DNA of 64,000 nt, taken from assembly GCA_949288415.1 (NCBI GenBank), contig CASEKE010000048.1, forward strand, positions 62,001 to 126,000, in the 5' to 3' direction. This document shows, piece after piece, positions 30,559-46,923 of the stretch; position 1 is the stretch's first letter, and each line of letters begins with the position of its first letter. The DNA is from an uncultured Spirochaetales bacterium (GTDB taxonomy: Bacteria > Spirochaetota > Spirochaetia > Sphaerochaetales > Sphaerochaetaceae). Under the pieces are notes generated by a model that was not told where the DNA came from, ran no database searches, and saw nothing but the letters and a program-made list of their open reading frames with translations. The position numbers and the translations under genes were made by a program.

Positions 30559-30890
30559 AATCCTTCGCCGCTGTTGCCATGGCGGCGTTGCTGCTCGTCG
30601 CGTCCTGCGCCAGGGAGGGCTTCTCCGTCTCATCGGCACGTCTCGAGGAGACGGACGGAGCTTTAGTTTTCAGGTTCGCCCCGACCGATACGGAGCTTGA
30701 CTACGACTTCATCGTCTCCAGCCCGTCCGGGGAGTTGACCTGGAGTGGGAAGGCTGAAAGGGGAGAAGCAGGATATTTCGTTTCACCTCCTCTGGAGATA
30801 ACCGAAGGTGCTTCGTTCGAGAAAGGTGAATACTCTTTCATCCTGTACGGTTCGAACGGGACCGAACTGTCGGATACAGTCCTCTACTGA
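30555..30890 (+). CDS. Small predicted lipoprotein
   Basis: 111 aa. TTG start overlapping the acyltransferase stop (TTGA). A lipoprotein signal MKSFAAVAMAALLLVASCAR has the lipobox LVASC with the lipidated Cys at residue 18. The rest looks like one Ig/FN3-type beta-sandwich (YDFIVSSPSGELTWSGKAE ... GEYSFILYGSNG). It is the last gene of its operon and overlaps mutL tail-to-tail by 7 bp. Function unknown. Confidence 0.7.
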   Translation: MKSFAAVAMAALLLVASCAREGFSVSSARLEETDGALVFRFAPTDTELDYDFIVSSPSGELTWSGKAERGEAGYFVSPPLEITEGASFEKGEYSFILYGSNGTELSDTVLY

Positions 30891-32737
30891 GTCCGGCCAA
30901 CCATCTGTCTGAGCTCTTTTTCGTCGAGTTTTATCAGAAATGTCCTTCCGTGTGGACAGGCCGGATCCTTCATAGCGAACACTTTCTCCAGTATCGCCTC
31001 AGCACTGAAGTCGTCGATATCGTCGCCGGCCTTTATAGCGGCCTTGCAGGCGACGATCGCGAAAAGCTTCTGCTCCAGTTCCTTCTCATCGCCTGTCGAG
31101 GTCGACATGAACGATACGATCTCCTTCTCGACTGGACGCGCGAGGGACGGCAGTGCATTGATCTCCCATTTTCCTTCTCCGACGCGCTGTATCATTATTC
31201 CCAGATTCGTGTATATGTCGGTACGGTCCTTCAGAAACTCGTCCACGTCCTTTTCCAGCTCGACCTCGATCGGGACAAGAAGCGTCTGCAGAGTTTTTTT
31301 CGATACCAGTTCGTCGTAGATGATCCTTTCGTGCGCCGCATGCTGGTCCACGAAGTACAGCGTTCCATCTTTCTCTGCAATCAGAAAAAGTCTGAAGGCC
31401 TGTCCGATGTAGCGGAAGGATGGAAGTTCCTCCTCCTGCTCGTCCGTCTCCTGCGATGCGGCGACAGTCCTTGCAGATGCCTTCTCCTCGTCCCTGAGTG
31501 CCTTCAGCTGCTTAGCTTTCTCGAGCCATCTGTTGTCCTCTGGACGTATTGTCTCTCTTTCGTAGGTATATCCGTTCCGCCTTTCGCCTGCCGTCTTTGC
31601 ACCGCTTTCCCCATGCCCATGCATCCACGATACGGTCGTCACGCTATTGTCCCGAGGACGGGGAAATGGGGCAGGTGCGGTGTTGTAGGGCGCGTTTCCG
31701 GCGCTTTCGAAGAGCTCCTTCTGATTGGCTTTTATTTCGGGGACGACCCTTTCCAGACCTTCGCGCAGAAGCACAGAGATTGCGTGATGCACTTCCTTCA
31801 TGCACCTTATCTTCACCTCCCTCTTTGCAGGGTGTATGTTGAAGTCGGCAAGCTCGTTCTTTATCTCCAGAAAGACGCTGCAGTATGGATAGGAGCCTCC
31901 AGGAAGCATCTCTCCATAACCGTAGGATACGGCCTGCTGGAGCGCGAAGTCGTCCACCTGACGGTTGTTGACATATATCCTTATCTCCTTGCGGTCGCTC
32001 CGTCTCGCGATGCTCTTTGCACAGACTATGGTAAGCGAGAAGTCCTCGCCGTTACCCCTCAGACAGAGAGTGTCCGCATCCGCAATCCCGAGAGGCCGAT
32101 ACAGCATCATAACCCTTTCCTTTATGTCGTTCGTCGCTTCGAAACTGAGCCTCAAGGCTCCGTCCATGTAGAGCTTGAAGGATATCCCGGGAAAAGCGAG
32201 CGCCTTGGAGACGAACGTGTTCCTGCATGCCTGTGCCTCGGTCTGTGCCCGCTTTAGGAAGGATCTTCTTGCAGGCACCTCGTAGAACAGTTCCTCCATC
32301 GTAACCCTGGTTCCCTTTGAAGGCCCCTGCGGTATTATTTCCTGTCTGCGTCCGTTGTCGATCACGATGGTGCTGCCGTTTCCGCTTTCCTCGTCGTGGC
32401 TTGCTATAGTGAGTCTGGAGACGCTTGCAATCGAGTGCAGCGCTTCCCCGCGAAAGCCCAGGGTATGGACGTTGTAGAGATCCTCCCCACTATGGATCTT
32501 GCTTGTGGCATGCCTGTTGGCTATCACGCTTAGATCTTCCCTTGAGATTCCTGATCCGTTGTCGATCACGGATATCCTTTCGACTCCTCCGCCGTCCACC
32601 TCGACGACGATTTCGTCCGCATTACTGTCTATGGCGTTGTCCAGTAGTTCCCTGAGTACCGATTCAGGTCGCTCGATCACTTCTCCTGCCGCGATCCGGG
32701 CTGCCACCAGATCGGGAAGTGTGCTTATTCTCTTCAT
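30884..32737 (-). CDS. mutL: DNA mismatch repair protein MutL (endonuclease type)
   Basis: 617 aa. N-terminal GHKL ATPase: RELLDNAIDSNADEI, VIDNGSGI, and TLGFRGEALHSIASVS. The C-terminal domain has DQHAAHERIIYDEL, the metal motif of nicking MutL proteins (last acidic position Asp in place of Glu), with ACKAAIKAGD and CPHGRTF completing the zinc/metal site. So this MutL probably nicks DNA itself, fitting the absence of mutH. The start codon abuts the stop of the large envelope gene (1-base overlap), making it the last gene of a four-gene leftward operon. Confidence 0.96.
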   Translation of the reverse strand: MKRISTLPDLVAARIAAGEVIERPESVLRELLDNAIDSNADEIVVEVDGGGVERISVIDNGSGISREDLSVIANRHATSKIHSGEDLYNVHTLGFRGEALHSIASVSRLTIASHDEESGNGSTIVIDNGRRQEIIPQGPSKGTRVTMEELFYEVPARRSFLKRAQTEAQACRNTFVSKALAFPGISFKLYMDGALRLSFEATNDIKERVMMLYRPLGIADADTLCLRGNGEDFSLTIVCAKSIARRSDRKEIRIYVNNRQVDDFALQQAVSYGYGEMLPGGSYPYCSVFLEIKNELADFNIHPAKREVKIRCMKEVHHAISVLLREGLERVVPEIKANQKELFESAGNAPYNTAPAPFPRPRDNSVTTVSWMHGHGESGAKTAGERRNGYTYERETIRPEDNRWLEKAKQLKALRDEEKASARTVAASQETDEQEEELPSFRYIGQAFRLFLIAEKDGTLYFVDQHAAHERIIYDELVSKKTLQTLLVPIEVELEKDVDEFLKDRTDIYTNLGIMIQRVGEGKWEINALPSLARPVEKEIVSFMSTSTGDEKELEQKLFAIVACKAAIKAGDDIDDFSAEAILEKVFAMKDPACPHGRTFLIKLDEKELRQMVGRTQ

Positions 32738-35700
32738 CAGAAACCGATCCTTGTCGTTATTGTCAGGCTAGGCACCGTCTCGACTCTATGGTAGGCGTTG
32801 ACGGGCGTATCCTCGTTTTTTTCCCAGAGCGCTCCGGTCTTGAACTCGGCCTTGAGACTCAGGTTGTCGTAGTTCTTGGTTATCGAGGCGGAGTAGATGG
32901 TGAGGTTGCTGTTCATGTAGCCGAAGAAGTCATCCGCGATATCTCCTACGGAGGACGCGAACGCCTGTCTGGAGAGGTTTAGCTCCATTCCGACGCCATT
33001 TGGAAGCGTGAAATCGATTCCAAGCGTCAGGATGTCCCTCGTATAATCGTCGAGCCTCGATATCATCTTCGCCATGTCCGGCACGGAATACTTGCCGAAC
33101 ATATTGAAGGACTTGAAGTATAGCGCAAAGTCCGCGACAAGCCAGTAGGTGTTGTTCTTCACATCCTCCTCGGCTTCGCCTGCGTTTCCTTGATCCTCGT
33201 CATCCACGGCCGATGCGCTGACGCTCAGGTCAGGATTGAACGCGGTGAATGCGTTGAACATGTTCGGTGCCAGCAGACCGGAGTGTATTCCTCCCGACAG
33301 TCCGAGCCGGAATGTATCCGGATCGTCCCACTTTATCTCGGCGCCGAGGAGATAACCGTAGAATTTTCCGTTCTCGAAGTCGTATATGATTTCCGTGACC
33401 GGTGTGTCGCTGTTCTCGTCGTATGTAGCCGTCATCTCTCCGTACACGAAGATGTTTGTCTGGAGTTTTTCCTCGAGAAATGGCACGTGCAGCGTCATTC
33501 CCGGGAAGCTCTTGATCGTTAAGTCGTCCATGCTCTTCAGGATGATTTCGGTAGGGCTGGAGATTATCAGGCCGGAGGAATCCGAATCGAACGGGTAAAT
33601 GCCTATCGACAGGTCGAATATCTTCGGCGATTCCAGATCGTCGACGTATGCGCTTATCGAGAGATTCTTGAACTTCAGCCCAGCTTCCATCGATAGCCCC
33701 TGGAATGGCATGTAGTTATCGAAGAGAATGTCGTTCTTCCTCATGATTCGCGATGCCTTCATGTGGATGAAACTGTCGTCAGAACCGAAGTTGAAGCCTT
33801 CTATCAGGGAAAAGATGTCGGTGATGGAATCGAAGAGAACCCTCTTGTCTATTCTTCCCTGGAACATCGTCCACCATTCGTCTCCCTTGATCGGCGACAG
33901 TCCGATGCTGTTTTCCGAGAGCCTGAGCATCAGGGGAACACGCAGCGAGAAGTTGTTGCTGGCCGTTCCGAAGCCAAGTATGGGTACGAACTTGAAAACA
34001 AGTTCGTGGTCCAGAAGACGTTCAAAGCCCATTTCGAACTGCAGGTCCACTGGTCTCGTCGAGTCCTTCTGCTCGACGTTGTCCAGATCGATCATTGCAA
34101 TCGAACCTTCGTATACCATCTGGGGCTTGCCGTCCGTGAACCTGAAGAGCATCCTCGATGAGAGACTGCCCGTATCGGCTCCGATTCCCGCATAGAGATC
34201 GCTTTTCCTGTAGAAGTTCTCGAAGTCCAGGAAGTTCGTCTTTCTCGCTCCGAATATGAAATCTATGTTCCCGATCCCGAATCCGAGCGAGAAATCTATG
34301 TAGGATTCGTCTGTGAGGAACTTCATCCGTTCAGTATCGAAGTTGACGAAAGAGTTGACTGCAAGTTTGATGTCGTCGAAGAGGATGTCTCCTTCCAGAA
34401 ACAGAGCGAGCTTGGAATTCGTGCTGTGGTCGTTCACGTAGTATTCGCTCAGCCTTCCGTAATAGATGCTTCCCGTCTGGTACATTCCGCCGAAGTTGAA
34501 GTTCACGTCGTTCCTCATGACGAGCGGGAATGAGAAGAGTATGCCCATGTCGGAGAAACTGAAGTCCTCCATCGATATCCCGTCGATGGCCAGAATATAT
34601 GCGAGCCGCATCCCGAAGGATGCGGTGTTGTTGTCTATGAACGGGATGTCGATGTAGGCCGCAGGGTAGAGCGAGGTATCCGCCGCTCTCATGTAAGGTA
34701 TGTCCGCCATCATCTCGAAGCCCAGACTGAATGGCAGATTCTCCGCGAAGTTGAATTTGAAGTCGGTTCCGAGGATCAATCGTGGATCGGAGTCTGCGTA
34801 GTTGGCGAACGATATATCGGGGGAGAACAGTCTCCAATTGAGTATGTTCCCCCTTGTCTGCAGATTCAAACTGAGTTTCTCGTCGACTCCGTCCCAGTCG
34901 TGCACTATGCCGTCGAAAAGACCTACCGAGTCTCCGAGAAGCGTCGTCGTCTTGTCTATAGCTACGACAAATCTCTCGTCGAAGGATCTGTAGTAGAGTC
35001 CTTCGAGAAAGGAGATGCCGTAGCTAAGATAAAAAGGGAGCGTCTTCTCCTCTGCGCTCTTTTCCGCAATCGACATGATCGAGTTAGGATCTATGTTCAG
35101 TTGCAGGAGGAACGAGCCGTATTCCAGCTTGGGAACGATGGAGCTGCGGAGCGAATGCTCGCCCGTGCCGCTGTCCGCGGCAGCCCTCATCTTCAGGAGA
35201 AAATCAAGAGAAAAGGAGTTTTTTTTTCTCTCTCCGGTAATAAGCTCCGTCTTGTTCTCCTGATATGGCAGAAGTATGTTTCCTCTGTCCGAGATTGCTC
35301 CGACCTCAGGCGACTGCAGGCTTTCGTCTATCCTGCTTTCGAGGACCTTGACGACAGGTGCGTCAAGGAGAAGGACCGAATCCCTCTTTCTCAGGGTAGG
35401 TGTGTCTGGTATTGGCTGGAGATCGAGTGCGATGTACTCGTCGTCGGAAACCGTCCTGTCCACGAAGCGCGGGGCTTCCGGGCGGCTGATGAGCTCGACC
35501 TTCTCCACGTTCATCATCGGTACCGCAGGAGAAGCGAATGCCGTATTCACTTCGTTGAAGACGGGTAGGGAAGGAACGAGGAGATGCTGTGCAGCGACGG
35601 ACAGATCGGCCTTCTCGGGAATAGGCTCGGAGAGGTCCAGGAGCTTGAAGTACGAGAAGAGCTCGTATGTATCCTTGTCGATTTCCTCGTCGATCGCTCC

Positions 35701-36204
35701 GGAAAGCAGTGATGAGAAACACAGAGCGTCGAGCTGCGTGGTCTTGCCTGAGATGCCGTCGAACACGTATGCGGCATTTTCCGAAAGGTTGATGAAGAGT
35801 TCCTCATTGGAGCTTGTCACCACGTAGAACTCGCCTTCTGCAGACGTTATAAGCCTCGATGTCGGAGTGTAGATGGAAAGAGTGTATTCCTGCTTGATCA
35901 GGAAGTTCGCAGCTCCGTCGATGAGATATATGGATGGATTGTCCTGATCCAGACTGGTTATCGCGAAAAGGGAATGCGGAGAAAGCACGATGTCCCCGTA
36001 GATGCTGTCGAAGCGTACCGGATCGCTGTCTGTGACTACGATGTAGCCACCCTCCTCGAGGCAGGTCGAGTTGTCGATCCTCTCGCCGTACGAATCGTAC
36101 AGCTTGAAGTTCCCGCTGCTTTCGGGGTTGAGTTCAAGCCCCTGTGCATAAAGCGCTGTTGCCGCAATCAGGAGGATTGCAAGAATGGACTTTATTCTCT
36201 TCAT
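32737..36204 (-). CDS. Large exported protein with FecR-like N-terminus and predicted outer-membrane barrel
   Basis: 1155 aa from the ATG at 36204 (GGAGAGG 6 nt upstream). Signal peptide MKRIKSILAILLIAATALYAQ. Residues about 30-160 have the order of a FecR-like domain: short strands around DNSTCLEEGGYIVVTDSD, SIYTPTSRLITSAEGEFYVV. From about 370 on the sequence is a succession of amphipathic strands (for example SFLLQLNIDPNSI, LSLNLQTRGNILNWRLFSP, FNFGGMYQTGSIYYG) ending in SLTITTRIGF, with the terminal Phe of BAM substrates. It probably forms a very large barrel. No named family recognised. Operon partners are ttcA and mutL. Confidence 0.7.
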   Translation of the reverse strand: MKRIKSILAILLIAATALYAQGLELNPESSGNFKLYDSYGERIDNSTCLEEGGYIVVTDSDPVRFDSIYGDIVLSPHSLFAITSLDQDNPSIYLIDGAANFLIKQEYTLSIYTPTSRLITSAEGEFYVVTSSNEELFINLSENAAYVFDGISGKTTQLDALCFSSLLSGAIDEEIDKDTYELFSYFKLLDLSEPIPEKADLSVAAQHLLVPSLPVFNEVNTAFASPAVPMMNVEKVELISRPEAPRFVDRTVSDDEYIALDLQPIPDTPTLRKRDSVLLLDAPVVKVLESRIDESLQSPEVGAISDRGNILLPYQENKTELITGERKKNSFSLDFLLKMRAAADSGTGEHSLRSSIVPKLEYGSFLLQLNIDPNSIMSIAEKSAEEKTLPFYLSYGISFLEGLYYRSFDERFVVAIDKTTTLLGDSVGLFDGIVHDWDGVDEKLSLNLQTRGNILNWRLFSPDISFANYADSDPRLILGTDFKFNFAENLPFSLGFEMMADIPYMRAADTSLYPAAYIDIPFIDNNTASFGMRLAYILAIDGISMEDFSFSDMGILFSFPLVMRNDVNFNFGGMYQTGSIYYGRLSEYYVNDHSTNSKLALFLEGDILFDDIKLAVNSFVNFDTERMKFLTDESYIDFSLGFGIGNIDFIFGARKTNFLDFENFYRKSDLYAGIGADTGSLSSRMLFRFTDGKPQMVYEGSIAMIDLDNVEQKDSTRPVDLQFEMGFERLLDHELVFKFVPILGFGTASNNFSLRVPLMLRLSENSIGLSPIKGDEWWTMFQGRIDKRVLFDSITDIFSLIEGFNFGSDDSFIHMKASRIMRKNDILFDNYMPFQGLSMEAGLKFKNLSISAYVDDLESPKIFDLSIGIYPFDSDSSGLIISSPTEIILKSMDDLTIKSFPGMTLHVPFLEEKLQTNIFVYGEMTATYDENSDTPVTEIIYDFENGKFYGYLLGAEIKWDDPDTFRLGLSGGIHSGLLAPNMFNAFTAFNPDLSVSASAVDDEDQGNAGEAEEDVKNNTYWLVADFALYFKSFNMFGKYSVPDMAKMISRLDDYTRDILTLGIDFTLPNGVGMELNLSRQAFASSVGDIADDFFGYMNSNLTIYSASITKNYDNLSLKAEFKTGALWEKNEDTPVNAYHRVETVPSLTITTRIGF

Positions 36205-36272
36205 TGAATACCTCTCCATGTTATCAGATAGTCTAACACATATCTGGATAACAATACCACAAGTTTTTGGTT

Positions 36273-37052
36273 TCACTCCCTCCCGGTTTTTTCGCTTTCG
36301 AACGGGTTTTCGTAGGTATGAGCGTTGAAGATATGCTCCCTTGCAAGCTTGTCGATATGGCAGAGTTCCTTGACGATCGGCTTGAGGGAAGCCCTTACGT
36401 TTGTCTGGTCATAAGGACATACGGGCTTGATGCAGGGAAGGTCGTAGGTCTCTGCAAGACGCTTCGTTACGCTTTCGTGTACCTCGATCATGGGCCTTAT
36501 GATATGCATCTTTCCCTTGAAGAACTCCTGAACGGGCTGCATCGTCGAGAAGTTGGCGCGGAAGCACAGGTTCATCAGGGTCGTCTCGACAAGATCGTCG
36601 AGGTGGTGTCCCATGGCTATAAGCCTGATGTTCTCCTTTTCCGCATGCTCGAAGAGTATCCTTCTGCGGTTCCTGGAGCAAAGATAGCAGTTGAATTCTC
36701 CCTTGAAGGAATCAGGGAACTGGTGCTCGTCGACCATGGTGAATCTGATGTCCAAATCGTCGAAGAAGCGCTCGAGCCTTTCTCTGTACTCCTCGGGAAT
36801 AGGATGTTCGATCCAGTTGATCATAAGCGCCTCAAGTTCGTAGTCCACGGGTAGCCATCTACGTCTTATGGAGAGCGCCAGCGACATTGCAAGGGAGTCC
36901 TTCCCCCCGGATGCGGCGATCAGAACCCTGTCTCCGCCTCTTATCATCGAGAAGTCGTTTATCCCTTTTCCTGTCTGCTTGATGAACCTCATCACCCATG
37001 GAGGGATGTCTCCTTCGATGAGGCTTCTGTAGCAAAGCTTTCCGTCGCTCAT
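36273..37052 (-). CDS. ttcA: tRNA 2-thiocytidine(32) synthetase TtcA
   Basis: 259 aa. ATP pyrophosphatase PP-loop SGGKDSLAM at residues about 49-57, and the Cys pairs of the family, CYLC near 120 and CIKP-VC near 208, which bind the Fe-S cluster. TtcA thiolates cytidine 32 of several tRNAs. The phrase GHHLDDLVETTLMNLCF and FKGKMHIIRPMIEV match the family well. It overlaps the upstream HD gene by 4 bp. Confidence 0.9.
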   Translation of the reverse strand: MSDGKLCYRSLIEGDIPPWVMRFIKQTGKGINDFSMIRGGDRVLIAASGGKDSLAMSLALSIRRRWLPVDYELEALMINWIEHPIPEEYRERLERFFDDLDIRFTMVDEHQFPDSFKGEFNCYLCSRNRRRILFEHAEKENIRLIAMGHHLDDLVETTLMNLCFRANFSTMQPVQEFFKGKMHIIRPMIEVHESVTKRLAETYDLPCIKPVCPYDQTNVRASLKPIVKELCHIDKLAREHIFNAHTYENPFESEKTGRE

Positions 37053-38317
37053 CCGAATATCTCCTCGAGAATCTTCGCGACAAGACAGGCATCGACGTAC
37101 TCGGGAGCGAAAACCGAAAGCTTTCGCAAATTTTCAGAGAAGCTCTTTCCGACCATGCGCGAGAATACGCTCTCGTCCTCTCTTATCTCGCTTACGCTGC
37201 CATCGGCCCTCAGAAGTTTCATGTCGTACTCGAATCTTATCGGTTCGGGTATGTCTATGATTACGAGCTGCTCCTCGATTTCCGGATGGATCTTCTGCAG
37301 TTCAAGCCTTATGGCATTCTCGACCCGCCTTCTTCCGGAAAGGTCAGAGGCTTCCTTCGTCAGGCGGGGAAGCTCGTCGAGTCCCCATTCGCCCTTCTTT
37401 GCAAGCAGCTGGCCGTGCTTGACCATGTCGATGAGGACGAACGGGCGGTAGGACGAATGTATCGTCGCAAGCTCGTTGAACTCGTCGTCGTCCTTGAGGT
37501 AGAGATCCTCCGGTGTTATCACACCGTCCTCCAGTGCGGAGAGCAGTGCTTTCTTTATCATCGCGGTGGCGCACCTCGTGCCTTTGTGCCAGTAGATCGT
37601 CTTGTACATCAGATACTTCGAGAAAAGTACGTGCTCGACCGATACCAGCGCTTCCTCCTTCATGACTATGGATCCGTCCCTGTAGTCGAGGCTGGATATG
37701 ATGTAGTCTGTGTTCTGGGTACCGTAGGGGACTCCGGAGAAATAGGCGTCGCGGGACAGATAGTCGAGCTTGTCCGGATCGAGCGTTCCTGAGAGTATTC
37801 CCCTATAGAAGACTGTCTCGCTATCTTCCGTTGCTTTCGCCTTGTCGATTATCGCACCTGTCATCTCCGGATCGGCCCCGGTCCTCTTCACCGCCTCGCA
37901 AAGCTCGGAATCTCCGTTTATCAGGCTGGCAGCGATTTCCTCGTGCTCCCTTATCGGAAGTTCCTTGAGGGAGTGGGCGTATGGAAAGTGTCCGATGTCG
38001 TGGAGCAGGGCCGCGACGAGGAAGCTCATCATTCCCGACTTCGTCAGCGGCAACTCGTCGTTCTTCCTCGCTATCGAGAGCAGTATCTGCCTCGAGAGGC
38101 AGTAGACGCCTATCGAATGGGAGAGCCTGGTATGTACGCTTCCCGGGTAGATAAGGTATGTCGGTCCGTTCTGCTTTATGCGCGAAAGCTTCTCAACGCT
38201 TCTTACAGTGAGCAGCTTTTTCAGTTCATCCGTGAAGAGGACGTTGCCCCAGAGCACGTCTTTGACGCTGTGATTGAATCCGTCGTTCAGGATTTCAAGC
38301 ATCTCGTTTCTTTTCAT
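37049..38317 (-). CDS. HD-domain phosphohydrolase (SAMHD1/dGTPase-like)
   Basis: 422 aa. The HD residues are seen as HTRLSHSIGVYCLS, LLHDIGHFPYAHSLKE (HD pair), EHEEIAASLI, and the later LDPDKLDYLSRDAYFSGV, the arrangement of SAMHD1-like and dGTPase-like hydrolases that remove triphosphate from dNTPs or cleave other nucleotides. The exact substrate is open. It is the first gene of the operon leading to ttcA, the large envelope protein and mutL. No ribosome site is visible; an extended -10 (TGCTATTTT) ends 6 nt before the ATG. Confidence 0.87.
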   Translation of the reverse strand: MKRNEMLEILNDGFNHSVKDVLWGNVLFTDELKKLLTVRSVEKLSRIKQNGPTYLIYPGSVHTRLSHSIGVYCLSRQILLSIARKNDELPLTKSGMMSFLVAALLHDIGHFPYAHSLKELPIREHEEIAASLINGDSELCEAVKRTGADPEMTGAIIDKAKATEDSETVFYRGILSGTLDPDKLDYLSRDAYFSGVPYGTQNTDYIISSLDYRDGSIVMKEEALVSVEHVLFSKYLMYKTIYWHKGTRCATAMIKKALLSALEDGVITPEDLYLKDDDEFNELATIHSSYRPFVLIDMVKHGQLLAKKGEWGLDELPRLTKEASDLSGRRRVENAIRLELQKIHPEIEEQLVIIDIPEPIRFEYDMKLLRADGSVSEIREDESVFSRMVGKSFSENLRKLSVFAPEYVDACLVAKILEEIFG

Positions 38318-38323
38318 ATTATG

Positions 38324-38332
38324 AAAATAGCA
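38324..38332 (-). promoter_or_regulatory. Extended -10 element of the HD-ttcA-mutL operon
   Basis: TGCTATTTT on the minus strand (38332-38324), 6 nt before the ATG at 38317; no good -35, as usual for extended -10 promoters. Leaderless geometry. Confidence 0.4.
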
Positions 38333-38383
38333 TGTTTTCGTTTTTTTTTGCAGATGATTCCTTCAAAACATCCCTCTCTTCTG

Positions 38384-38389
38384 TATAAT
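38384..38389 (+). promoter_or_regulatory. -10 element (TATAAT) of the exported-protein gene at 38397
   Basis: Perfect TATAAT ending 7 nt before the ATG at 38397, with TTCAAA 16 nt further upstream (38362-38367). It overlaps an earlier in-frame ATG at 38388, which therefore cannot be on the transcript. Confidence 0.55.
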
Positions 38390-38396
38390 GGATAGC

Positions 38397-38783
38397 ATGA
38401 AAAGCATCCTGTCCTTTGCTGCAATCGTTTTTCTCTGCGTCCCGCTTTATGCGATCGCTCCTCTCTCGGCCGAGATCGGGCCTGTCGTGGTGAGTCCCTC
38501 CGCTGGCAGCCTGACGGAGAAGGCGTTGGAGGCAGCAGGAGAGAAGGTGGATCTCGAGTGGTTCGAAAAATATACGAACGGAGACAAGGGGCTGATCGAC
38601 TCCCTTTCGCCGTCGCTTCTTGAACTGCTGCCTTTGCAGAATGCGATAGCCGGTGTCGAAAAGGATGGAGCCGTCAGTCTCTATGACCTCGATATGAAGG
38701 TCAGGATATCTTTCGCATTCGATTCCGACGGTCTTGTCGAGGCGATAGGAATAGTCGAGAAAAAGGAAAAAGCCTCGGACTGA
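38397..38783 (+). CDS. Exported protein of unknown function
   Basis: 128 aa. Signal peptide MKSILSFAAIVFLCVPLYA. The mature part is mixed helix and strand: VSPSAGSLTEKALEAAGEKVDLEWFEKYTNG, then ELLPLQNAIAGVEKDGAVSLYDLDMKV RISFAFDSDG (spacing mine). No family recognised. The ATG at 38397 is preferred to that at 38388 because the -10 box covers the latter. Its stop codon lies inside the loop-proximal part of its own terminator. Confidence 0.65.
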   Translation: MKSILSFAAIVFLCVPLYAIAPLSAEIGPVVVSPSAGSLTEKALEAAGEKVDLEWFEKYTNGDKGLIDSLSPSLLELLPLQNAIAGVEKDGAVSLYDLDMKVRISFAFDSDGLVEAIGIVEKKEKASD

Positions 38784-38793
38784 GGCTTTTTCC
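38765..38793. terminator. Bidirectional terminator built over a stop codon
   Basis: 12-bp perfect stem GGAAAAAGCCTC/GAGGCTTTTTCC (38765-38776 with 38782-38793) with loop GGACT. The stop codon of the exported-protein gene (TGA at 38781-38783) lies at the loop/stem edge. It serves this gene and the convergent pepF. Confidence 0.85.
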
Positions 38794-38813
38794 ATGCGTC
38801 TATGCTGCTTTTC

Positions 38814-40592
38814 TCATTGCTGCGAGTCGAGCTTCTCGAAGCGGGAAAGGAGCTCCGCGAAGCGATCGGTCGCCGCCTTTACAGGATCTGGACTGCTCAT
38901 GTCGACGCCGGCCTTCCGGAGCGACTCGATAGGATATTTCGAACCGCCCGAGCACAGGAACGAAAGATATGCGTCCCTTTCTTTCTTGCCACCGTCGAGG
39001 ACCTTTCTGGACAGGGCTATAGAGGCGCTTATGCCGGTTGCATACTTGTATGTGTAGAATGCCCTGTAGAAGTGTGGGATCCTGAGACCTTCGAGATCAC
39101 TTACGTCCTCGAACTCGAGGACCGGACCGAAATATGTCTCCAGCAGTTTCCTGTAGTCCGATCTCAGCCTGTCCACCGTAAGCGGGATTCCCTTTTCTGC
39201 CTCCTCGTGGACCATCAGCTCGTACTCGGCGAACATAGTCTGGCGGAAAAGCGTTGCGACCATGTCGTCGAGCGTCTTAGAGAGAAGGTATTTCTCGAAG
39301 TTTCTGTCCTTGCTTTCCTTGAGCAGGTATTCCGTCAGCAGCTGCTCGTTGAACGTCGAGGCGACCTCGGCCTCGAAGATCGTATAGTCATAGCTCATGA
39401 AGGGATTGTTCCTGACGGAGTAGTAGGAGTGCATGCTGTGGCCGCCTTCGTGTATCAGCGTGAATACGCTGTCCAGCACTTCGTCTTGGTAGTTTGTCAG
39501 GATGTAGGGCTTTCCCGTATAGCATCCGGCGCTGAAGGCACCGCTGCGCTTTCCCCTGTTCTCGTATCTGTCGACCCAGCGATCGGTGGTCAGTCCGGCC
39601 TGGAGCGTCCTTGCGTATTCCTCACCGAGAGGGGCGACGGCTTCCGTTATGATCTTTACCGCTTCATCGTATCCGTATGAGACAGGGACGGTTCTTGCCA
39701 TGTTCATGTACACGTCGTAGTGCTTCAGTTTCGTCTTGCAGAGGCAACGGGCTTTGACCTCGTAGTAACGGTGCAGGACAGGCAATGCATCGTGTATGGC
39801 TCCTATCAGGTTGCGGTATACCTTTGGACTTACCTTGTCCGGGAAAAGCGCGCATTCCAGACTGGATGAATAGCCCCGCGCCTTTGCGCGGAAGATGTCG
39901 TTCTTCACACTGGATGAGAATATCCTCGAGATCACGTGCCTATGTGCGTCGTAGACTCCATAATACTGGAGGTAGGCCCTCCGTCTTTTGTCCTCGTCGT
40001 CCATGCGCATGAACTTGGCATAGCTTGCGTGGGTGAGGGGTTCTCCGTCGATCTCGCCGAATTCGAAGTCCGCATTGTCGAGATCCTGGAAGGCCTCCTG
40101 AAACGATCCGGATACGGGGGCATACAGCGAGAGAAGTCTTTCCTCCTTCTCCGAGAGTACGTGTTCCTTGAATCGCCTGTCCTTCAGGATCGATACCTTG
40201 TAGGGCTTCATTCTCCTATCTCTCAGCGCGTTTTTTATGAAGCCGTCGTCGAGACCCAGCAGCTCGGGATTCAGAAAACTCGTCTTTTCTGCGATCTTCG
40301 CTTCTAGCGCATCGACCATTCCGGCACGTCTCATGACGTCCGGGTTCGTGCTGTCTGCGCTGTACTGCAGAAATGCATAGCTTGCGAGCCGTTCGAATTC
40401 CTTGTAGAAATCCTCTATGGTCCTGTATGCCTCGAAAAGGCTGTCGACGGATTTCCCGAGCGTGCCCTTGAGGGCTTCGAGATCCTTGATTCTCCTTTCG
40501 AGTTTCCTCAGGTCACGTTCCCATTCCCTATCGCTCCCTGAAAGACTGGCAAGGTCCCACGTGTTTTCCGTCTTCTGTTCATTTCTTTCCAT
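38814..40592 (-). CDS. pepF: Oligoendopeptidase F (M3B)
   Basis: 592 aa. Zinc metallopeptidase cleaving peptides of about 7-17 residues in the cytoplasm. The active site HEGGHSMHSYYS (HEXXH) is followed by the third zinc ligand region YTIFEAEVASTFNEQ. The N-terminal helical PepF domain (residues about 100-170) is present. The start is set at 40592, with AAGGAG 9 nt upstream; a TTG 21 nt earlier is weaker. It overlaps the end of rdgB by 14 bp, in an operon with rdgB, a lipoprotein and the sigma-like gene. Confidence 0.94.
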   Translation of the reverse strand: MERNEQKTENTWDLASLSGSDREWERDLRKLERRIKDLEALKGTLGKSVDSLFEAYRTIEDFYKEFERLASYAFLQYSADSTNPDVMRRAGMVDALEAKIAEKTSFLNPELLGLDDGFIKNALRDRRMKPYKVSILKDRRFKEHVLSEKEERLLSLYAPVSGSFQEAFQDLDNADFEFGEIDGEPLTHASYAKFMRMDDEDKRRRAYLQYYGVYDAHRHVISRIFSSSVKNDIFRAKARGYSSSLECALFPDKVSPKVYRNLIGAIHDALPVLHRYYEVKARCLCKTKLKHYDVYMNMARTVPVSYGYDEAVKIITEAVAPLGEEYARTLQAGLTTDRWVDRYENRGKRSGAFSAGCYTGKPYILTNYQDEVLDSVFTLIHEGGHSMHSYYSVRNNPFMSYDYTIFEAEVASTFNEQLLTEYLLKESKDRNFEKYLLSKTLDDMVATLFRQTMFAEYELMVHEEAEKGIPLTVDRLRSDYRKLLETYFGPVLEFEDVSDLEGLRIPHFYRAFYTYKYATGISASIALSRKVLDGGKKERDAYLSFLCSGGSKYPIESLRKAGVDMSSPDPVKAATDRFAELLSRFEKLDSQQ

Positions 40593-41187
40593 CTTTTTCC
40601 ATCTCCTTGGCAATGAGGTCCTTCATGAGCCTGGCTGCCTTGCCTCTGTGCGAATACCTGTTCTTATCTCCTTCCGGAAGAAGGGCCGATATCATCCCGG
40701 CCTCGTTGTTGTAGAACACCGGGTCGTAGCCGAAGCCGGTGGTACCGTCGGGTGCCAGGGCGATGCTGCCCTCTGCCGTCTCCTGGATTATGTAGATCCT
40801 GTTCTCGTCGAGCATGAGACATAGGGCCGCGACGAATGTCGCCCTCCTATCCGCGACACCTTCCATGTTCCTGAGCAGAAGCATGTACTTCTCCCTGTCG
40901 GAAAGTTTTCTTTCCCCTTCGACCTCTCCGTAGCGGGCAGTGTGTATGCCGGGCTTCCCTCCGAGTGCTTCCACGCAGAGTCCGGAGTCGTCCGAAAGCA
41001 CGGGTGCCTTCACGATATTGTAGAGTGCCCTGGCCTTTATCATTGCGTTCTCCACGAACGTGTTGCCATCCTCAACCGGGTCGAATTCGATTCCTTCCTC
41101 CTTTGGAAGGACCAGGGAGACATTGTCGAGCAGAGCCTGCATCTCCTTCTTCTTATGGTCGTTGCCTGAGGCGAAATAAAGTTTCAT
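40579..41187 (-). CDS. rdgB: Non-canonical purine NTP pyrophosphatase (RdgB/HAM1)
   Basis: 202 aa. Hydrolyses ITP, dITP and XTP to monophosphates, keeping deaminated purines out of nucleic acids. Family motifs: ASGNDHKKKEMQALL at the start, NTFVENAMIKAR, VLSDDSGLCVEALGGKPGI, then GTTGFGYDPVF and the end phrase KNRYSHRGKAARLM. The ATG at 41187 has GAGG 4 nt upstream; a longer reading would lack family match. It also has TATATT ending 7 nt before the ATG, so a second, internal start of transcription is possible. Confidence 0.95.
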   Translation of the reverse strand: MKLYFASGNDHKKKEMQALLDNVSLVLPKEEGIEFDPVEDGNTFVENAMIKARALYNIVKAPVLSDDSGLCVEALGGKPGIHTARYGEVEGERKLSDREKYMLLLRNMEGVADRRATFVAALCLMLDENRIYIIQETAEGSIALAPDGTTGFGYDPVFYNNEAGMISALLPEGDKNRYSHRGKAARLMKDLIAKEMEKDGKK

Positions 41188-41206
41188 ACACCTCAATATA
41201 GCACTC

Positions 41207-41596
41207 TCATACCCTGAAGGAAAAGGATTGGAAGAAAAGAGACGACAGCTGGAGAGGTACGTACGCGCTTTCGGCCCCGATGTGGACGTACAAGCATTTT
41301 CCATCGACGATCAAGTTGACTCTTTCCTTCGTCGAGAAGAAGTACCTTGTCCCGTCGTCGTCCGGAGGAAGCTCCGTCAGCAAAATCGCCTCGCTCTCCG
41401 TGTCCGGACGAACGAGCCTGGCTTCGCCCTCCGTCTCGAGACGATACTGGATGCCGCCCAGCACGAAGGACCAGCTGCCGATCATATCGCAGAGCCTGAC
41501 TGTCGTCGTACCATCGCCTCCGCCCTCTCTTCCTGATGAGGCGCACGAGACTGAAAGCAACAGGACCATGGCGAATGCTGCGATGGAATTTCTCAT
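41207..41596 (-). CDS. Small predicted lipoprotein
   Basis: 129 aa. Lipoprotein signal MRNSIAAFAMVLLLSVSCAS with lipobox LSVSC. The mature part is about 105 residues, probably a small beta domain (GSWSFVLGGIQYRLETEGE, then TRYFFSTKERVNLIVDGKC). No family recognised. The ATG at 41596 is preceded by a TTGCCA-N17-TATCAT promoter whose -10 ends 6 nt before the ATG, with no ribosome site: a strong leaderless candidate inside the operon. Confidence 0.72.
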   Translation of the reverse strand: MRNSIAAFAMVLLLSVSCASSGREGGGDGTTTVRLCDMIGSWSFVLGGIQYRLETEGEARLVRPDTESEAILLTELPPDDDGTRYFFSTKERVNLIVDGKCLYVHIGAESAYVPLQLSSLFFQSFSFRV

Positions 41597-41602
41597 GGCA
41601 CA

Positions 41603-41631
41603 ATGATAATCTAGACCTGGCCGCTTGGCAA
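41603..41631 (-). promoter_or_regulatory. Promoter of the lipoprotein-rdgB-pepF unit, leaderless geometry
   Basis: TTGCCA (41631-41626), 17-nt spacer, TATCAT (41608-41603), then exactly 6 nt to the ATG. It lies across the 3' end of the upstream gene (stop at 41611). Both hexamers match consensus in 5 of 6 positions. Confidence 0.65.
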
Positions 41632-42627
41632 ATCCCCAGCGCCCGAGGATGCGAGCATCGTCTCGATGCATCTCATGTTGTCCGATATCGTCGAGCGGCT
41701 CAGTCCGAGGAGGGCGGATATCTGTCTTACCGAGAGTCCCTGGTTGTCCCTCCTGACGGCATTGAGCTTCAGCTCGTGGAGCCTTCTCAGCCGCGTCTCG
41801 TTTTCCAGGACCTTTCTCCTTTCCTCCGCGGTGGAAGCGAGCTCGTAGGCGGTGGAGAGCCTCAGCAGAAGCCTGTAGTACTTCATGGATAGCTCGAGAT
41901 TCCTTCTTCGGCTTTCTTCCTTGTACGCGGTCTCGTCGTCGCGCAGACGCAGAAACTCAAGCAGGCTCTCCTCGCTTACCTTGAGAATCCGCGAGAAGTA
42001 GGGGACGTAGTTCGTACCCGTTCCCCTGGGAAGCTTCAGAAGGTATGCAAGAAGTCCCAGCTTCTTGTTCCTCTTGTCTAGCTTTTCCCTCATCCTGGCG
42101 ATCATGAGTGTCTCGTCGACATCCGTGTTCCTGTTCTCCTCGCTCTCGTGAAGGATAAGAAGGGCCGATTCCTTGAGCGAAGTTGCGAACGGGGCATCCT
42201 TTTTTCTGGGATATCCGATTTCTTTTGTCCCATCTTCGTAGATGGACTCGAGATCGAACACTGCGCTTCTCGGTTCGTTCCTGACGAAGTCGTAATCCAT
42301 GCGCTCCCTGTCGCTTTCGGCCTCCCTCTTGTGGATGAGATAGTTCCTGACCCTGACTCTCATGACCTGTGCTATGTATTCGCTGTACGGAAGCTGGGAT
42401 ATTCTGTATGCATCCATTATCCTTCCGGCGTTCTTCTTTTCCGTGAGGAAGAACTCGGCGGCCTCCCTTTTTTCAAGGTAACCCTTCTCGACGGGGACCG
42501 TGTAGATCAATTCCTCGGTCAGTCTTATCAGTGCAGCGTATTCCTCGCCGTTTCTGCGTTTTTCCGGCAGAGAGTTGAATCTGACAATCTCGGCGGAAAT
42601 TTCGTCCTTCTGATTTCTTGTGAGCAT
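41611..42627 (-). CDS. Sigma-factor-like helix-turn-helix protein of unknown family
   Basis: 338 aa. The C-terminal 45 residues contain a clear helix-turn-helix: GLSVRQISALLGLSRSTISD (recognition helix about 305-325). The N-terminal half (about 50-115) reads like sigma region 2: AEFFLTEKKNAGRIMDAYRI followed by SQLPYSEYIAQVMRVRVRNY LIHKRE, comparable to the 'yl...vvrN...d..RK' pattern of sigma factors. Between lie about 190 helical residues. It may be a divergent sigma-like or sigma-derived regulator, but it does not match a family I know with confidence. CAGGAGG precedes the ATG. It is the first gene of its unit. Confidence 0.6.
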   Translation of the reverse strand: MLTRNQKDEISAEIVRFNSLPEKRRNGEEYAALIRLTEELIYTVPVEKGYLEKREAAEFFLTEKKNAGRIMDAYRISQLPYSEYIAQVMRVRVRNYLIHKREAESDRERMDYDFVRNEPRSAVFDLESIYEDGTKEIGYPRKKDAPFATSLKESALLILHESEENRNTDVDETLMIARMREKLDKRNKKLGLLAYLLKLPRGTGTNYVPYFSRILKVSEESLLEFLRLRDDETAYKEESRRRNLELSMKYYRLLLRLSTAYELASTAEERRKVLENETRLRRLHELKLNAVRRDNQGLSVRQISALLGLSRSTISDNMRCIETMLASSGAGDLPSGQV

Positions 42628-42754
42628 TTTTTCCTCCTGTTTGCAAAAGAAAGAGAATGCAAATCATGCCAAGAGGAAAAAAAGGAAAGCCGGTCGTGAT
42701 GCAGTTCCTTGTCCTGAAAGGAATTGCTCGCGGCCGGTTATAGGTCGATCGAAT

Positions 42755-43735
42755 TCAGGCGAGAAAGTCGAACAGGGAAATGGCCATCCGACGCGCCTCA
42801 TCGAGCGAGACGTTCTTCACAGTGGCCCCTGCTGCGAGACGGTGTCCTCCGCCTCCGAGCGAGCCTGCGATGCTTCCCACGTCGACTCCGCTGCCGTTCT
42901 TTGCGCGGAAGCCGATCTCCACGCCGTCCTCCATTTCCTTGAGAAGCAGGACGACCTTGACGTCTCTGACCTCGAGGAGCGTGGAGTAGACTGTGTCTCC
43001 GGGGCGTTCATCGGTGACGCAGTCGATTTTCTCGCATGCGACAAGCAGTCTGCCTTCGTAGTAGCTCTCGACCTCCTCCATGATACGTGCGATCGTGCGC
43101 ACGTCGCAAAGGCTCCTACCATCGTGAAGCCTGTCGTAGAGCTCGTACGGGGATGCTCCTGCCCTGGCAAGATCCGCTACGGCTTCCAGCGCTTCGGGGG
43201 CCTGTACCGACGACAGGAAATGGAAGAAACCGGTGTCCGTGAGGAAGCCGGTCATGATGTATTCTGCACTCTCCTTGTCGAGCTCGACTCCGAGTCTTCT
43301 CCTCAGTCTGTCGACGAGAAGGGTGGTGGAAGGGGATGACGGAACTATGTATGAAAGTTCCGCGTCGTAGAACACCTCTCCCGAGCTGTGATGATCGATG
43401 ACTATCAGAGGCTTGTCCTCAAAGCCGCCGTACACTTTGCCGGGCCTGTCGGGAGTGGAACAGTCCAGGATGATTGCTACGTCCGTCTCCTTTCTGATTT
43501 CGTCCGTCGCCTGCGATGAGAACCTGGACTCGAACTTTTCTACCTCCCGTCGTCTGAACGGGCCGTCCGAGAGCAGGAAGACCTTCTTTCCGAGGCTTTC
43601 AAGCACTTTTTCCAGGGCGAGGGACGAGAAAACGGCGTCGCCGTCAGGAGCTATGTGGCTCATGACGGCGAAAGTCCCGTTGCTTAGTATTGTGTCGACC
43701 AGACGGTCATTTATCGGAGGAAATATAGTTTCCAT
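42755..43735 (-). CDS. nrnA: DHH/DHHA1 phosphoesterase NrnA-like (oligoribonuclease / pAp phosphatase)
   Basis: 326 aa. DHH motifs [11 protein letters not shown] (DxD), [10 protein letters not shown] and VIDHHSSGE, and the DHHA1 motif [14 protein letters not shown] at the end. NrnA-type enzymes finish RNA decay by hydrolysing nano-RNAs and dephosphorylate pAp. The gene overlaps the 3' end of clpX by 29 bp, so it is translated from the clp message. Downstream to 42628 there is a short gap with no strong terminator. Confidence 0.93.
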
Positions 43736-44966
43736 CGGTAACTACTCTGGGTCTCGATCCGGTCTCGACGTTCTCCCGGTCGACGATGACCTCGGTCACT
43801 CCGTGCATGCTAGGCAGATCGTACGATATGTCCAGCATGAGGTTTTCCACTATGCTGCGGAGTCCTCTTGCGCCCGTCTTCTGGCTGTATGCCTTCTCAG
43901 CGATCGCGTTGACCGCATCGTCCGTGAACGTGAGCTTTATTCCGTCGAGCTTCAACGACATCTGATACTGCTTTATTATCGAGTTCTTCGGCTCGGTGAT
44001 GATCCTCTTGAGGTCGTCGACCTTGAGATCGGACAACGTCACATGTATCGGCAGCCTTCCTATGAACTCCGGGATGAGGCCGAACTTGACGAGGTCGTCC
44101 GGAAGAAGCTGGCTGTACAGTTCGCTGAGCTCCTTTTCGCTCTTTTCTCCGATGACGGCGCCGAATCCGAGGGCCGCATGGGCGGTCCTGCGTTCGATCA
44201 CCTTGTCTAGCCCGACGAAGGCGCCTCCGCAGATGAAGAGGATGTTCTTAGTGTCGATCTTGAGCATCTCCTGATTTGGATGCTTCCTTCCTCCCTGCGG
44301 AGGGACGGAAGCGACGGTACCTTCGATGATTTTGAGCAGCGCCTGCTGGACTCCTTCTCCAGATACGTCGCGCGTGATCGAGACGTTCTCGCCCTTTTTT
44401 GCTATCTTGTCGATCTCATCGATGAAGATTATTCCCTTTTCTGCCTTTGCGATGTCGAAGTCGGCCGCATCGATGAGCTTCAGAAGAATGTTCTCTACAT
44501 CCTCGCCGACGTATCCGGCCTCTGTGAGCGTAGTGGCATCGGCTATGGCGAAGGGTACCTTGAGCTTCTTTGCAAGCGTCCGCGCAAGGAGGGTCTTTCC
44601 GGTTCCGGTCGGACCGACGAGCAGTATGTTGGACTTGTCGAGCTCGACGCCGGCTTCCTCGATCTCCCTCTGGTGGAGCACCCTTTTGTAGTGGTTGTAT
44701 ACTGCGACGGATAGAACTCTTTTAGCGGCGTCCTGTCCGATGACGTACTCGTCCAGATATTCCTTTATCTCCCTGGGGGAGGGAATGTCGCTCTGGAGGA
44801 ATGTGTCGTCGTTCTTCTCCTCTTCGCCGTACTGGGACGAAAAGAGCGTCCTGCACGTCTCGACGCAGTCGCGGCAGATGGAGACTCCGTTGCCGTTGAT
44901 GAGCTGGCCCGCTTCCTGGACGGAGCGGCCGCAGAATGAACAATACTTACCGCCTCTGGCCATCAT
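43707..44966 (-). CDS. clpX: ATP-dependent Clp protease ATP-binding subunit ClpX
   Basis: 419 aa. N-terminal zinc-binding domain with CSFCGRSV ... [11 protein letters not shown]+ core with Walker A GPTGTGKT, pore loop GYVGEDVE, Walker [11 protein letters not shown], the RKH-like ERRTAH loop and sensor 2 GARGLRS. ClpX unfolds tagged proteins and feeds them to ClpP; the IGL-type docking loop is expected around residues 265-275. It overlaps clpP by 4 bp (ATGA). Confidence 0.97.
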
Positions 44967-45544
44967 TTCCTCACTACTGAATCGACGATTCCGAATTCGA
45001 GCGCCTCTTCGGCCGAAAGATAGAAATCCCTCTCTATGGCCTTGAGTATCTCCTCGTCGCTTTTTCCTGTATGCTCAGCCAGTATCCTCGTCGTGGCCTT
45101 CTTGATCCTCTGAAGTTCCTTGTTGGCGACGATTATGTCGCTGGCCTGGCCTTCGGCACCGCCGTAAGGCTGGTGGATCATGACCCTCGCGTTGGGCAGG
45201 ATGCTTCTCTTTCCCTTGCTTCCGCCTGCAAGCAGCAGTGCGGCCATCGAGCAGGCCTGGCCGAGGCAGATCGTCCTGACGGGACAGGAGATGTACTGCA
45301 TCGTATCGTATACGGCCAGTCCGGCTGTGACGCTTCCGCCCGGGCTGTTGATGTAGATGTTGATGTCCTTCTCGGGATGTTCGGCCTCCAGAAAAAGAAG
45401 CTGAGCGACAACCAAGTCGGCTGTCGCATCAGTTATCTCTCCGTCTATGAAGACTATTCTTTCCTTGAGAAGGCGACTGAAAATGTCGTACTGCCTTTCA
45501 CCGGTTCCCGTCTGTTCGACGACGTAGGGAACCAGCGAATTCAT
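44963..45544 (-). CDS. clpP: ATP-dependent Clp protease proteolytic subunit ClpP
   Basis: 193 aa from ATG 45544 ([20 protein letters not shown]), the start of most ClpPs; a GTG at 45577 that overlaps the tig stop would add 11 residues without family match. Catalytic Ser in [14 protein letters not shown], His in VMIHQPYGG and the later Asp. The short propeptide is typical. Ribosome site GGAAGAG. Second gene of tig-clpP-clpX-nrnA. Confidence 0.96.
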
Positions 45545-45573
45545 CTTCTCTTCCAATGTTTTTCTCCAGTTTC

Positions 45574-46923
45574 TCACTCGGCCTTCTCAGCCTTCTTCTC
45601 CCTGTATTCCTTGAGGCTGAGCTTCTCGGGCGAGACGAAGGTGTTGTTCTCGAGGAGGAACGGTACGACCTTTGCAAACTGCATGTCGTCCTTGATCATG
45701 TTCTTGTAGTACTCGATGCTGCTCTCGTCCTTGATGGATGCGAGCTGCTCGTCGCAGGCCTTCTTGAATTCCTCATCGTCGAGCTTGAAATCCTCCTGCT
45801 TCTTTATGTCCTCAAGGATGAGCTGGTCGCGGATGTTCTTCTCTGCGGAAGGTCTCCACTCCTTGAGGATGCTGTCCTTGCTCTGGTTCTGCATGCTGAA
45901 GAACTGGAGAAGCTTCTCCTCCTCGAGTCCGCTCTGCTGTACGAACCTTCTCCAGGACTGATCGAGCTCAACGTCGATCATGGATGCGGGAACCTCGAAC
46001 TTCGTCTCGTCCCTGAGAATCTCGAGCAGAGCCGTGATCTTGTCGTTCTTCATCGACTCTTCAAGTTCCTTCTCGAGCTTCTCCCTCGTGCCCTTGACAA
46101 GGTCGTCGACAGTCTTGTAGTCGTCCTTGACGTCCTGGGCAAGCTCATCTGAGAGTTCGGGAATCTCCCTGTACTTGATCTCGTCGACCTTCACCTTGAG
46201 TGTGATGCTTGCACCCTTGAACGTCACGTCGTTGTCGTCGTACTTCTTCTCGATGATCTTCTCGTCGCCCTTGGCGAGGCCTACGAGATCCTCGTCGATC
46301 CTGTAGTAGTTGTATCCGGTACCAAGAGTGAAGGTGAATCCCTCCCTCTTCGTATCTGCCTTCTCTGCCTTGTTCTCGTCGAGCTCAACATAGTCGAGCG
46401 TGACGATGTCGCCCATGGCGATGGTTCCGTCCTTCGTCCTGACGACGGCGTTCTGGTCTCTGATCCTGTCGAGCTCCTCGTTCACGTCGCTCTCCTTGAC
46501 CTCGGCTCCGTCGTACTTCACCTCGCGTCCCTTGTAGGACTCGACCTTGAACTGGGGATAGACGTCGTAGTGGACGGTGAATGTGACGTTCTCGTCCTTC
46601 TTGAACGGAACGAGCTTCTCCTCGTCCTGGAGGACGGGGGTAGAGTAGGCCAGGGGTCTGTCCTTCTCGTCGAGCGTCTCGATGACCTGCTTGAGGTTTT
46701 CCTCGAGAGCCTCGAACGTGCTTTCTTCCCTGATCGCATCGCCGTACTTTCTCTCGATGACAGCGATAGGTGCCTTGCCCTTTCTGAAGCCGTCAAGCTG
46801 GATGTTGGCCTGATACTTCTTCATTTTGTTCTGGTATGCTTCCTCGATCGCTGCAGCGTCGACTGTGATCGTGAGCGCTACCTGCGAGCCGTCAAGGCTC
46901 CTGATACTCTTTTCGACAACCAT
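45574..46923 (-). CDS. tig: Trigger factor
   Basis: 449 aa ribosome-associated chaperone. N-terminal ribosome-binding domain containing [19 protein letters not shown] (GFRxGxxP motif), central FKBP-type PPIase around residues 160-240 ([15 protein letters not shown]), and a long helical C-terminal substrate-binding domain. It leads the tig-clpP-clpX operon, the classical order. AAGGAAGGG precedes the ATG; the promoter is at 46980-47008. Confidence 0.96.

Follow-up and report, generated by a model that had tools for sequence, protein, structure and literature searches.

The window analysed here, a stretch of 64,000 nucleotides from an uncultured Spirochaetales bacterium (Sphaerochaetaceae), encodes a 338-residue protein that belongs to a family almost certainly homologous to the sigma-70 factors, as judged from sequence comparisons, and that is likely to work as an alternative sigma factor of an ECF-related branch. 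Sigma factors direct bacterial RNA polymerase to the genes that are to be switched on. Profile searches, a structure model and the genomic context agree with the interpretation, already advanced in the initial annotation of the window, of a sigma-factor-like family, and, judging from searches that covered spirochaete genomes, its members are spread over many spirochaete lineages, including some beyond the class Spirochaetia.

The open reading frame on the minus strand from which the initial annotation set out is present and is a real gene, with an ATG start codon at 42627 that follows an AGGAGG ribosome-binding site (Table 1), orthologues across the genus and a signature of purifying selection (see below). 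The spacing of the genes agrees with the view that it heads a unit with a lipoprotein gene, rdgB and pepF: 14 nt lie between the sigma-like gene and the ATG of the lipoprotein gene and 19 nt between the latter and rdgB, the rdgB and pepF frames overlap, and a gap of 127 bp separates the sigma-like gene from the nrnA-like gene upstream. Farther 5′ of the nrnA-like gene are located genes that we take to be clpX, clpP and tig; these names, as well as rdgB and pepF, derive from recognition or from the initial annotation, a family search not being their source. For a promoter of its own, the region 41100–42900 contains one consensus match (0.7 expected), which sits at the 3′ end of the gene. The source genome comprises 2.1 Mb in 53 contigs, and the closest relatives found in named records are uncultured Spirochaetaceae or Spirochaetales and one Candidatus Ornithospirochaeta. 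The gene order tig-clpP-clpX-nrnA-sigma-(lipoprotein)-rdgB-pepF-HD protein-ttcA-large outer-membrane-like protein-mutL, which spans positions 30884–46923 of the window, is kept in the longer loci of the genus (e.g., L066, L072, and L082). In many loci of the genus, rdgB directly follows the sigma-like gene and a lipoprotein gene would not fit. A role of the downstream lipoprotein as an anti-sigma factor was considered and ruled out because the lipoprotein appears to be exported and because of this lack of room ahead of rdgB.

Table 1. The sigma-like gene, its predicted domains and the adjacent genes (positions in the window).
Feature	Position	Strand	Basis
pepF	38814..40592	minus	Synteny; name without family-library check
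rdgB, kept downstream neighbour in Spirochaetia	40579..41187	minus	Synteny; name without family-library check
Small lipoprotein gene, no Pfam match	41207..41596	minus	Lipobox by eye
Sigma-like gene, 338 aa	41611..42627	minus	ORF, orthologues, purifying selection
Region-4.2-like helix-turn-helix, residues 297–327	41647..41739	minus	hhalign to ECF sigma-4; class consensus IAxxLxIPKGTVDS
Long helical hairpin, residues 235–295	41743..41925	minus	AlphaFold helices 235–263 and 267–295; same in C-terminal model
Middle helical domain, residues 151–234, weakly sigma-4-like or sigma-3-like	41926..42177	minus	hhalign, C-terminal model, PDB profile search
Linker, residues 107–150, partly low confidence (116–136, pLDDT <50)	42178..42309	minus	AlphaFold
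Sigma-2-like N-terminal domain, residues 2–106	42310..42624	minus	VIA, hhalign to ECF sigma-2
Ribosome-binding site AGGAGG, 5 bases 5′ of the ATG	42633..42638	minus	Read from sequence
nrnA-like DHH/DHHA1 phosphoesterase gene, upstream neighbour	42755..43735	minus	Pfam DHH and DHHA1; synteny

Taken alone, the window protein matches TIGR02937, the NCBIfam sigma70-ECF model, with an E-value of 1.3e-5 and 24.9 bits, short of the curated cut-off (42.9 bits), as is also the case for six further proteins of the genus that were scored singly (18.2–32.9 bits). The same model has matches in 29 of the 30 genus members (best E-value 8e-13) and in 56 of 72 members taken across the class (best 3.1e-9), and three of four outgroup members that were scored singly pass the cut-off (111.5, 95.3, and 63.0 bits), the fourth reaching 42.7. 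A profile of 38 members retrieved Bacillus subtilis SigW from the PDB (2.7e-10), the alignment falling into two collinear segments that correspond to sigma-2 together with region 4.1 and to region 4.2; with a single outgroup protein as the query, nine of the 10 PDB matches at E ≤ 1 are sigma factors (best 1.1e-4). Among the Pfam families, Sigma70_r4_2 has matches at E ≤ 0.1 (the best being 3.3e-6) in 20 of the 30 genus members, and the cut-off of Sigma70_r2 is not reached in any member for which a score was examined. PHROGs yielded nothing beyond weak helix-turn-helix matches. By eye, the canonical D-x-x-Q-E of region 2.2 is altered in the window protein.

An ordinary helix-turn-helix protein without sigma ancestry, in which the N-terminal likeness arose by chance among helical proteins, would account for some of these results: on its own, the window protein fits several generic helix-turn-helix families of Pfam as well as it fits sigma families, and the genus profile found chiefly helix-turn-helix proteins in the PDB, with sigma-E at E-values of 0.17 and above, the stronger matches having needed outgroup members. 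Such an origin is very improbable given that the SigW match extends over sigma-2 and that the N-terminal domain is recognized independently of the helix-turn-helix. When compared by hhalign with eight ECF factors from spirochaete genomes, the N-terminal domain matched ECF sigma-2 at 55.6% with the members of the class, at 92.4% once 11 outgroup members were included and at 96.3% with outgroups only, and the C-terminal profiles matched ECF sigma-4 at 96.6–97.1%. The controls, nine unrelated neighbouring families, did not exceed 5.6%, and 0.9% in the case of the N-terminal domain match; the sigma resemblance originally perceived by eye thus exceeds chance. Against sigma-2 of 15 longer sigma factors, the N-terminal domain yielded 3.6–31.8%, far poorer than against the ECF factors.

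Profiles and AlphaFold models also support the layout proposed in the initial annotation, namely a sigma-2-like N-terminus and a sigma-4-like C-terminal helix-turn-helix about 190 residues apart. The stretch RVRVRNYLIHKRE (residues 90–102) is located inside the AlphaFold helix 81–116, the C-terminal helix-turn-helix is modelled at 300–327, and the region between them consists of helices and coil. The full-length model, built with 30 sequences, has a pLDDT of 82.6 and a pTM of 0.62; a model of residues 148–338, built with 59 sequences (pLDDT 93.1, pTM 0.84), consists of a small helical domain, a long hairpin and the helix-turn-helix. In the structural comparison with sigma regions that had been suggested at the outset, the N-terminal domain resembles sigma-E (1or7; Z 8.2, rmsd 3.2, 93 aligned residues), region 2 of SigC (2o7g; Z 7.7, 88 aligned) and SigI1 (8i23; Z 7.3, 108 aligned), VIA scores that are to be read with the caveat that helical proteins commonly reach Z ~8. 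All seven rows of the VIA list that are restricted to residues 1–121 are sigma factors. Foldseek with the full model found nothing at E ≤ 0.001, the top match being sigma-B (E 0.51), and the rows shown for the C-terminal model in both VIA and Foldseek are generic helical hairpins, with no sigma factor among them, an absence to which we attach no weight.

The middle domain, initially read as sigma-3, may be related to either sigma-3 or sigma-4: class members alone favour sigma-3 (42.2% vs. 1.9–4.4% for sigma-4 in hhalign), whereas outgroup members fit sigma-4 better (83.5% with ECF factors and 91.7% with longer factors vs. 30.5% for sigma-3). With all members taken together, the values are 71.4% for sigma-3 and 61.1–76.5% for sigma-4; the comparisons with sigma-3 span 26–27 columns. 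The HMMER alignment of the 38-member profile to SigW places ~100 residues between regions 4.1 and 4.2. On these alignments, the arrangement could be either a sigma-4 split by an insert or tandem copies of sigma-4, both of which are possible. By eye, the C-terminal helix-turn-helix is apparently lost in the outgroup members at loci L190, L238 and L249, and the Sphaerochaetaceae member of genome G330 lies in a 673-residue open frame, about twice the usual length (L100:4213-6231).

In a search of 60 relatives, matches were found in all 36 genomes of the genus, the source genome included, and in one of the 24 others; in two of the 36, the match is incomplete or fragmented (residues 174–324 in G005; two pieces in one frame in G011). 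The class search recovered 34 of 35 genus genomes, the exception, G363, also being without an rdgB match, and the genus profile matched 206 of 394 genomes of the class. With the class profile, 308 of the 392 genomes of the phylum had a match at E ≤ 0.001, a tally that is too generous because ordinary ECF factors also matched. The search was repeated with a phylum-wide profile on 39 genomes, 38 of which had been unmatched before or served to re-check an absence. In the 35 from other classes that the class profile had left unmatched, there was one clear member (G487, 323 aa, 6.1e-52), the remaining matches being weak and located mostly in frames of 170–250 residues, like ordinary ECF factors, and several in frames of 294–307 residues. 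Of 20 genomes without a first match, rdgB was found in 17, where in 10 cases it is immediately preceded by a diverged member; in two further genomes missed at first, G042 and G057, a member is present elsewhere. No match was obtained in 17 listed genomes of a family that we take to be Borreliaceae-like from size and gene order (f19), which is also absent among the phylum matches, and in a genome that we take to be Treponema pallidum-like from its size and an Arp-like repeat gene (G110), no member adjoins rdgB and elsewhere one weak match of ECF size is found. Given that rdgB is present in the checked genomes without the sigma-like gene (G053, G076, G175, and G110), this gene was probably lost in the Borreliaceae-like family and in G110.

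The sigma-like gene evolves under purifying selection, with dN/dS of 0.05–0.23 in six pairs of relatives (frames taken stop to stop; four more pairs were saturated or identical), and nrnA and rdgB show 0.02–0.15 in the same pairs. Divergence is fast, identity to the window protein being 18–28% in the genus alignment. Several phylum matches (e.g., G225, G335, and G071; loci L184, L225 and others) contain a single stop codon, which probably marks the end of the matched segment.

Across 69 loci of the class (some of which end at contig edges and two of which, L088 and L089, are near-identical), rdgB directly follows the sigma-like gene in 54; excluding the ten loci that had been retrieved through rdgB, the count is 44 of 59. 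The sigma-like gene is preceded by nrnA in 38 of the 69. This conserved context would be expected if the protein regulated the operon in which it is encoded (nrnA, rdgB), in the service of nucleotide housekeeping and without a separate regulon. We regard such a role as improbable, considering that targets are hardly deducible from operon membership alone and that neither rdgB nor nrnA adjoins the sigma-like gene at any of the 37 loci taken from other classes (35 genomes), within flanks of ~1.5 kb.

The other-class loci often carry a different neighbour. When the products of ten genes that immediately follow the sigma-like gene were compared with Pfam, four matched zf-HC2, a zinc motif common among anti-sigma factors, above the gathering score, and six had no match. 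A profile built from eight such proteins detects a directly downstream partner at E < 0.01 in 19 of the 37 loci; as eight of the 19 had built the profile, the independent count is 11 of 29, three of the 29 loci ending at a contig edge. Sub-threshold matches occupy the same position in six more loci, and the sigma-like and partner frames overlap in several. The partner family (e.g., L264:4449-4994, L265:6013-6588, and L274:5940-6677) consists of small proteins, many with an N-terminal zf-HC2 motif, that share a C-terminal segment with a terminal G-x-Y motif; zinc ligands are missing in some partners, such as that of the Brachyspira-like L261. With the same partner profile, no adjacent anti-sigma-like gene was found in any of the 69 Spirochaetia loci, and the single zf-HC2 gene in the genome of the window adjoins an ordinary ECF factor outside the window.

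The loss of the partner in Spirochaetia, together with the fast evolution, the changed residues of region 2.2 and the scores of the Spirochaetia members below the curated sigma cut-off, would also suit a regulator of ECF descent that, at least in this class, does not open promoters but modulates transcription through binding to polymerase or DNA, for instance in competition with other sigma factors. We consider this unlikely, although worth keeping in mind: both DNA-reading ends are conserved across the class under purifying selection, and the outgroup members resemble an intact ECF sigma-2. If, as we favour, the protein acts as an alternative sigma factor, its sigma-2-like domain would hold the clamp of RNA polymerase and would read and open the −10 element, leaving the −35 element to the region-4.2-like helix-turn-helix at the C-terminus. 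The ~100 extra residues, which comprise part of the small helical domain and the long hairpin, would split sigma-4 between regions 4.1 and 4.2; alternatively, they may come after an initial sigma-4 that has degenerated. The zf-HC2 anti-sigma-like protein that many lineages outside Spirochaetia encode directly downstream would keep the factor inactive. In Spirochaetia, where this neighbour is gone and the gene stands before rdgB, control must therefore differ. A speculative scenario, in which we place little confidence, is that sigma-4, split by or duplicated around the hairpin, provides two DNA-reading heads that recognize unusually spaced promoters, and that, in Spirochaetia, entry of the gene into the nrnA-rdgB operon was accompanied by loss of the zinc anti-sigma factor, so that a stress-type switch became a standing part of the transcription machinery, which was later dropped in Borrelia and the syphilis spirochaete.

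If the protein is a working sigma factor, many spirochaetes hold a transcription factor that curated annotation models can miss, inasmuch as all seven genus proteins scored singly, that of the window included, fall below the sigma70-ECF cut-off, and the family may be absent from lists of spirochaete sigma factors. Its architecture would then also probe what separation of regions 2, 4.1 and 4.2 is compatible with the guiding of polymerase, and the absence of the gene from Borreliaceae-like and T. pallidum-like genomes would offer a natural comparison for the identification of its targets.

A literature search, conducted largely without subscription papers, found no description of the family as such and no functional test. 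The initial annotation had called the family undescribed, which appears to hold for the family as such, though perhaps not for each of its members, given that a probable relative is in print as an unclassified ECF factor: LIC_10225 of Leptospira interrogans, with 301 aa and a sigma-ECF region at 21–194 in the accessible part of PMC12655853, is also listed in tables of PMC6941012 and PMC5100919, the latter of which records a transposon mutant in lic10225. The length and proportions of this protein (a ~174-residue sigma core followed by ~107 residues) match those of the outgroup members, as far as the published description goes.

The closest known systems are the ECF (group 4) factors, such as SigW (5wuq), in which sigma-2 and region 4.2 follow each other in the same order; outgroup members share with them an ECF-like linker and, at many loci, the zf-HC2 anti-sigma-like neighbour. 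ECF factors measure roughly 170–220 residues and usually, albeit not universally, adjoin a cognate anti-sigma gene; the members of the family measure about 280–340, with ~100 extra residues ahead of region 4.2, and those of Spirochaetia have no adjacent anti-sigma gene. The window protein has the sigma-2 domain (by profile and model) and the region 4.2 helix-turn-helix of ECF factors but lacks their compact size, a TIGR02937 score above the curated cut-off and an adjacent anti-sigma gene; with 338 aa, an extra middle segment and a hairpin, it is therefore classed as an ECF-related variant and not as an ECF factor. Some ECF groups, such as ECF41, ECF42 and ECF238, combine C-terminal regulatory extensions with the absence of an anti-sigma factor, according to the accessible text of PMC8999054, the main text of which does not contain the terms “coiled,” “helix-turn-helix” or “Spirochaet.” The family resembles these groups in having residues beyond the two-domain core and, in Spirochaetia, no adjacent anti-sigma gene, but differs from them in that its extra part is a helical hairpin that ends in a region-4.2-like helix-turn-helix.
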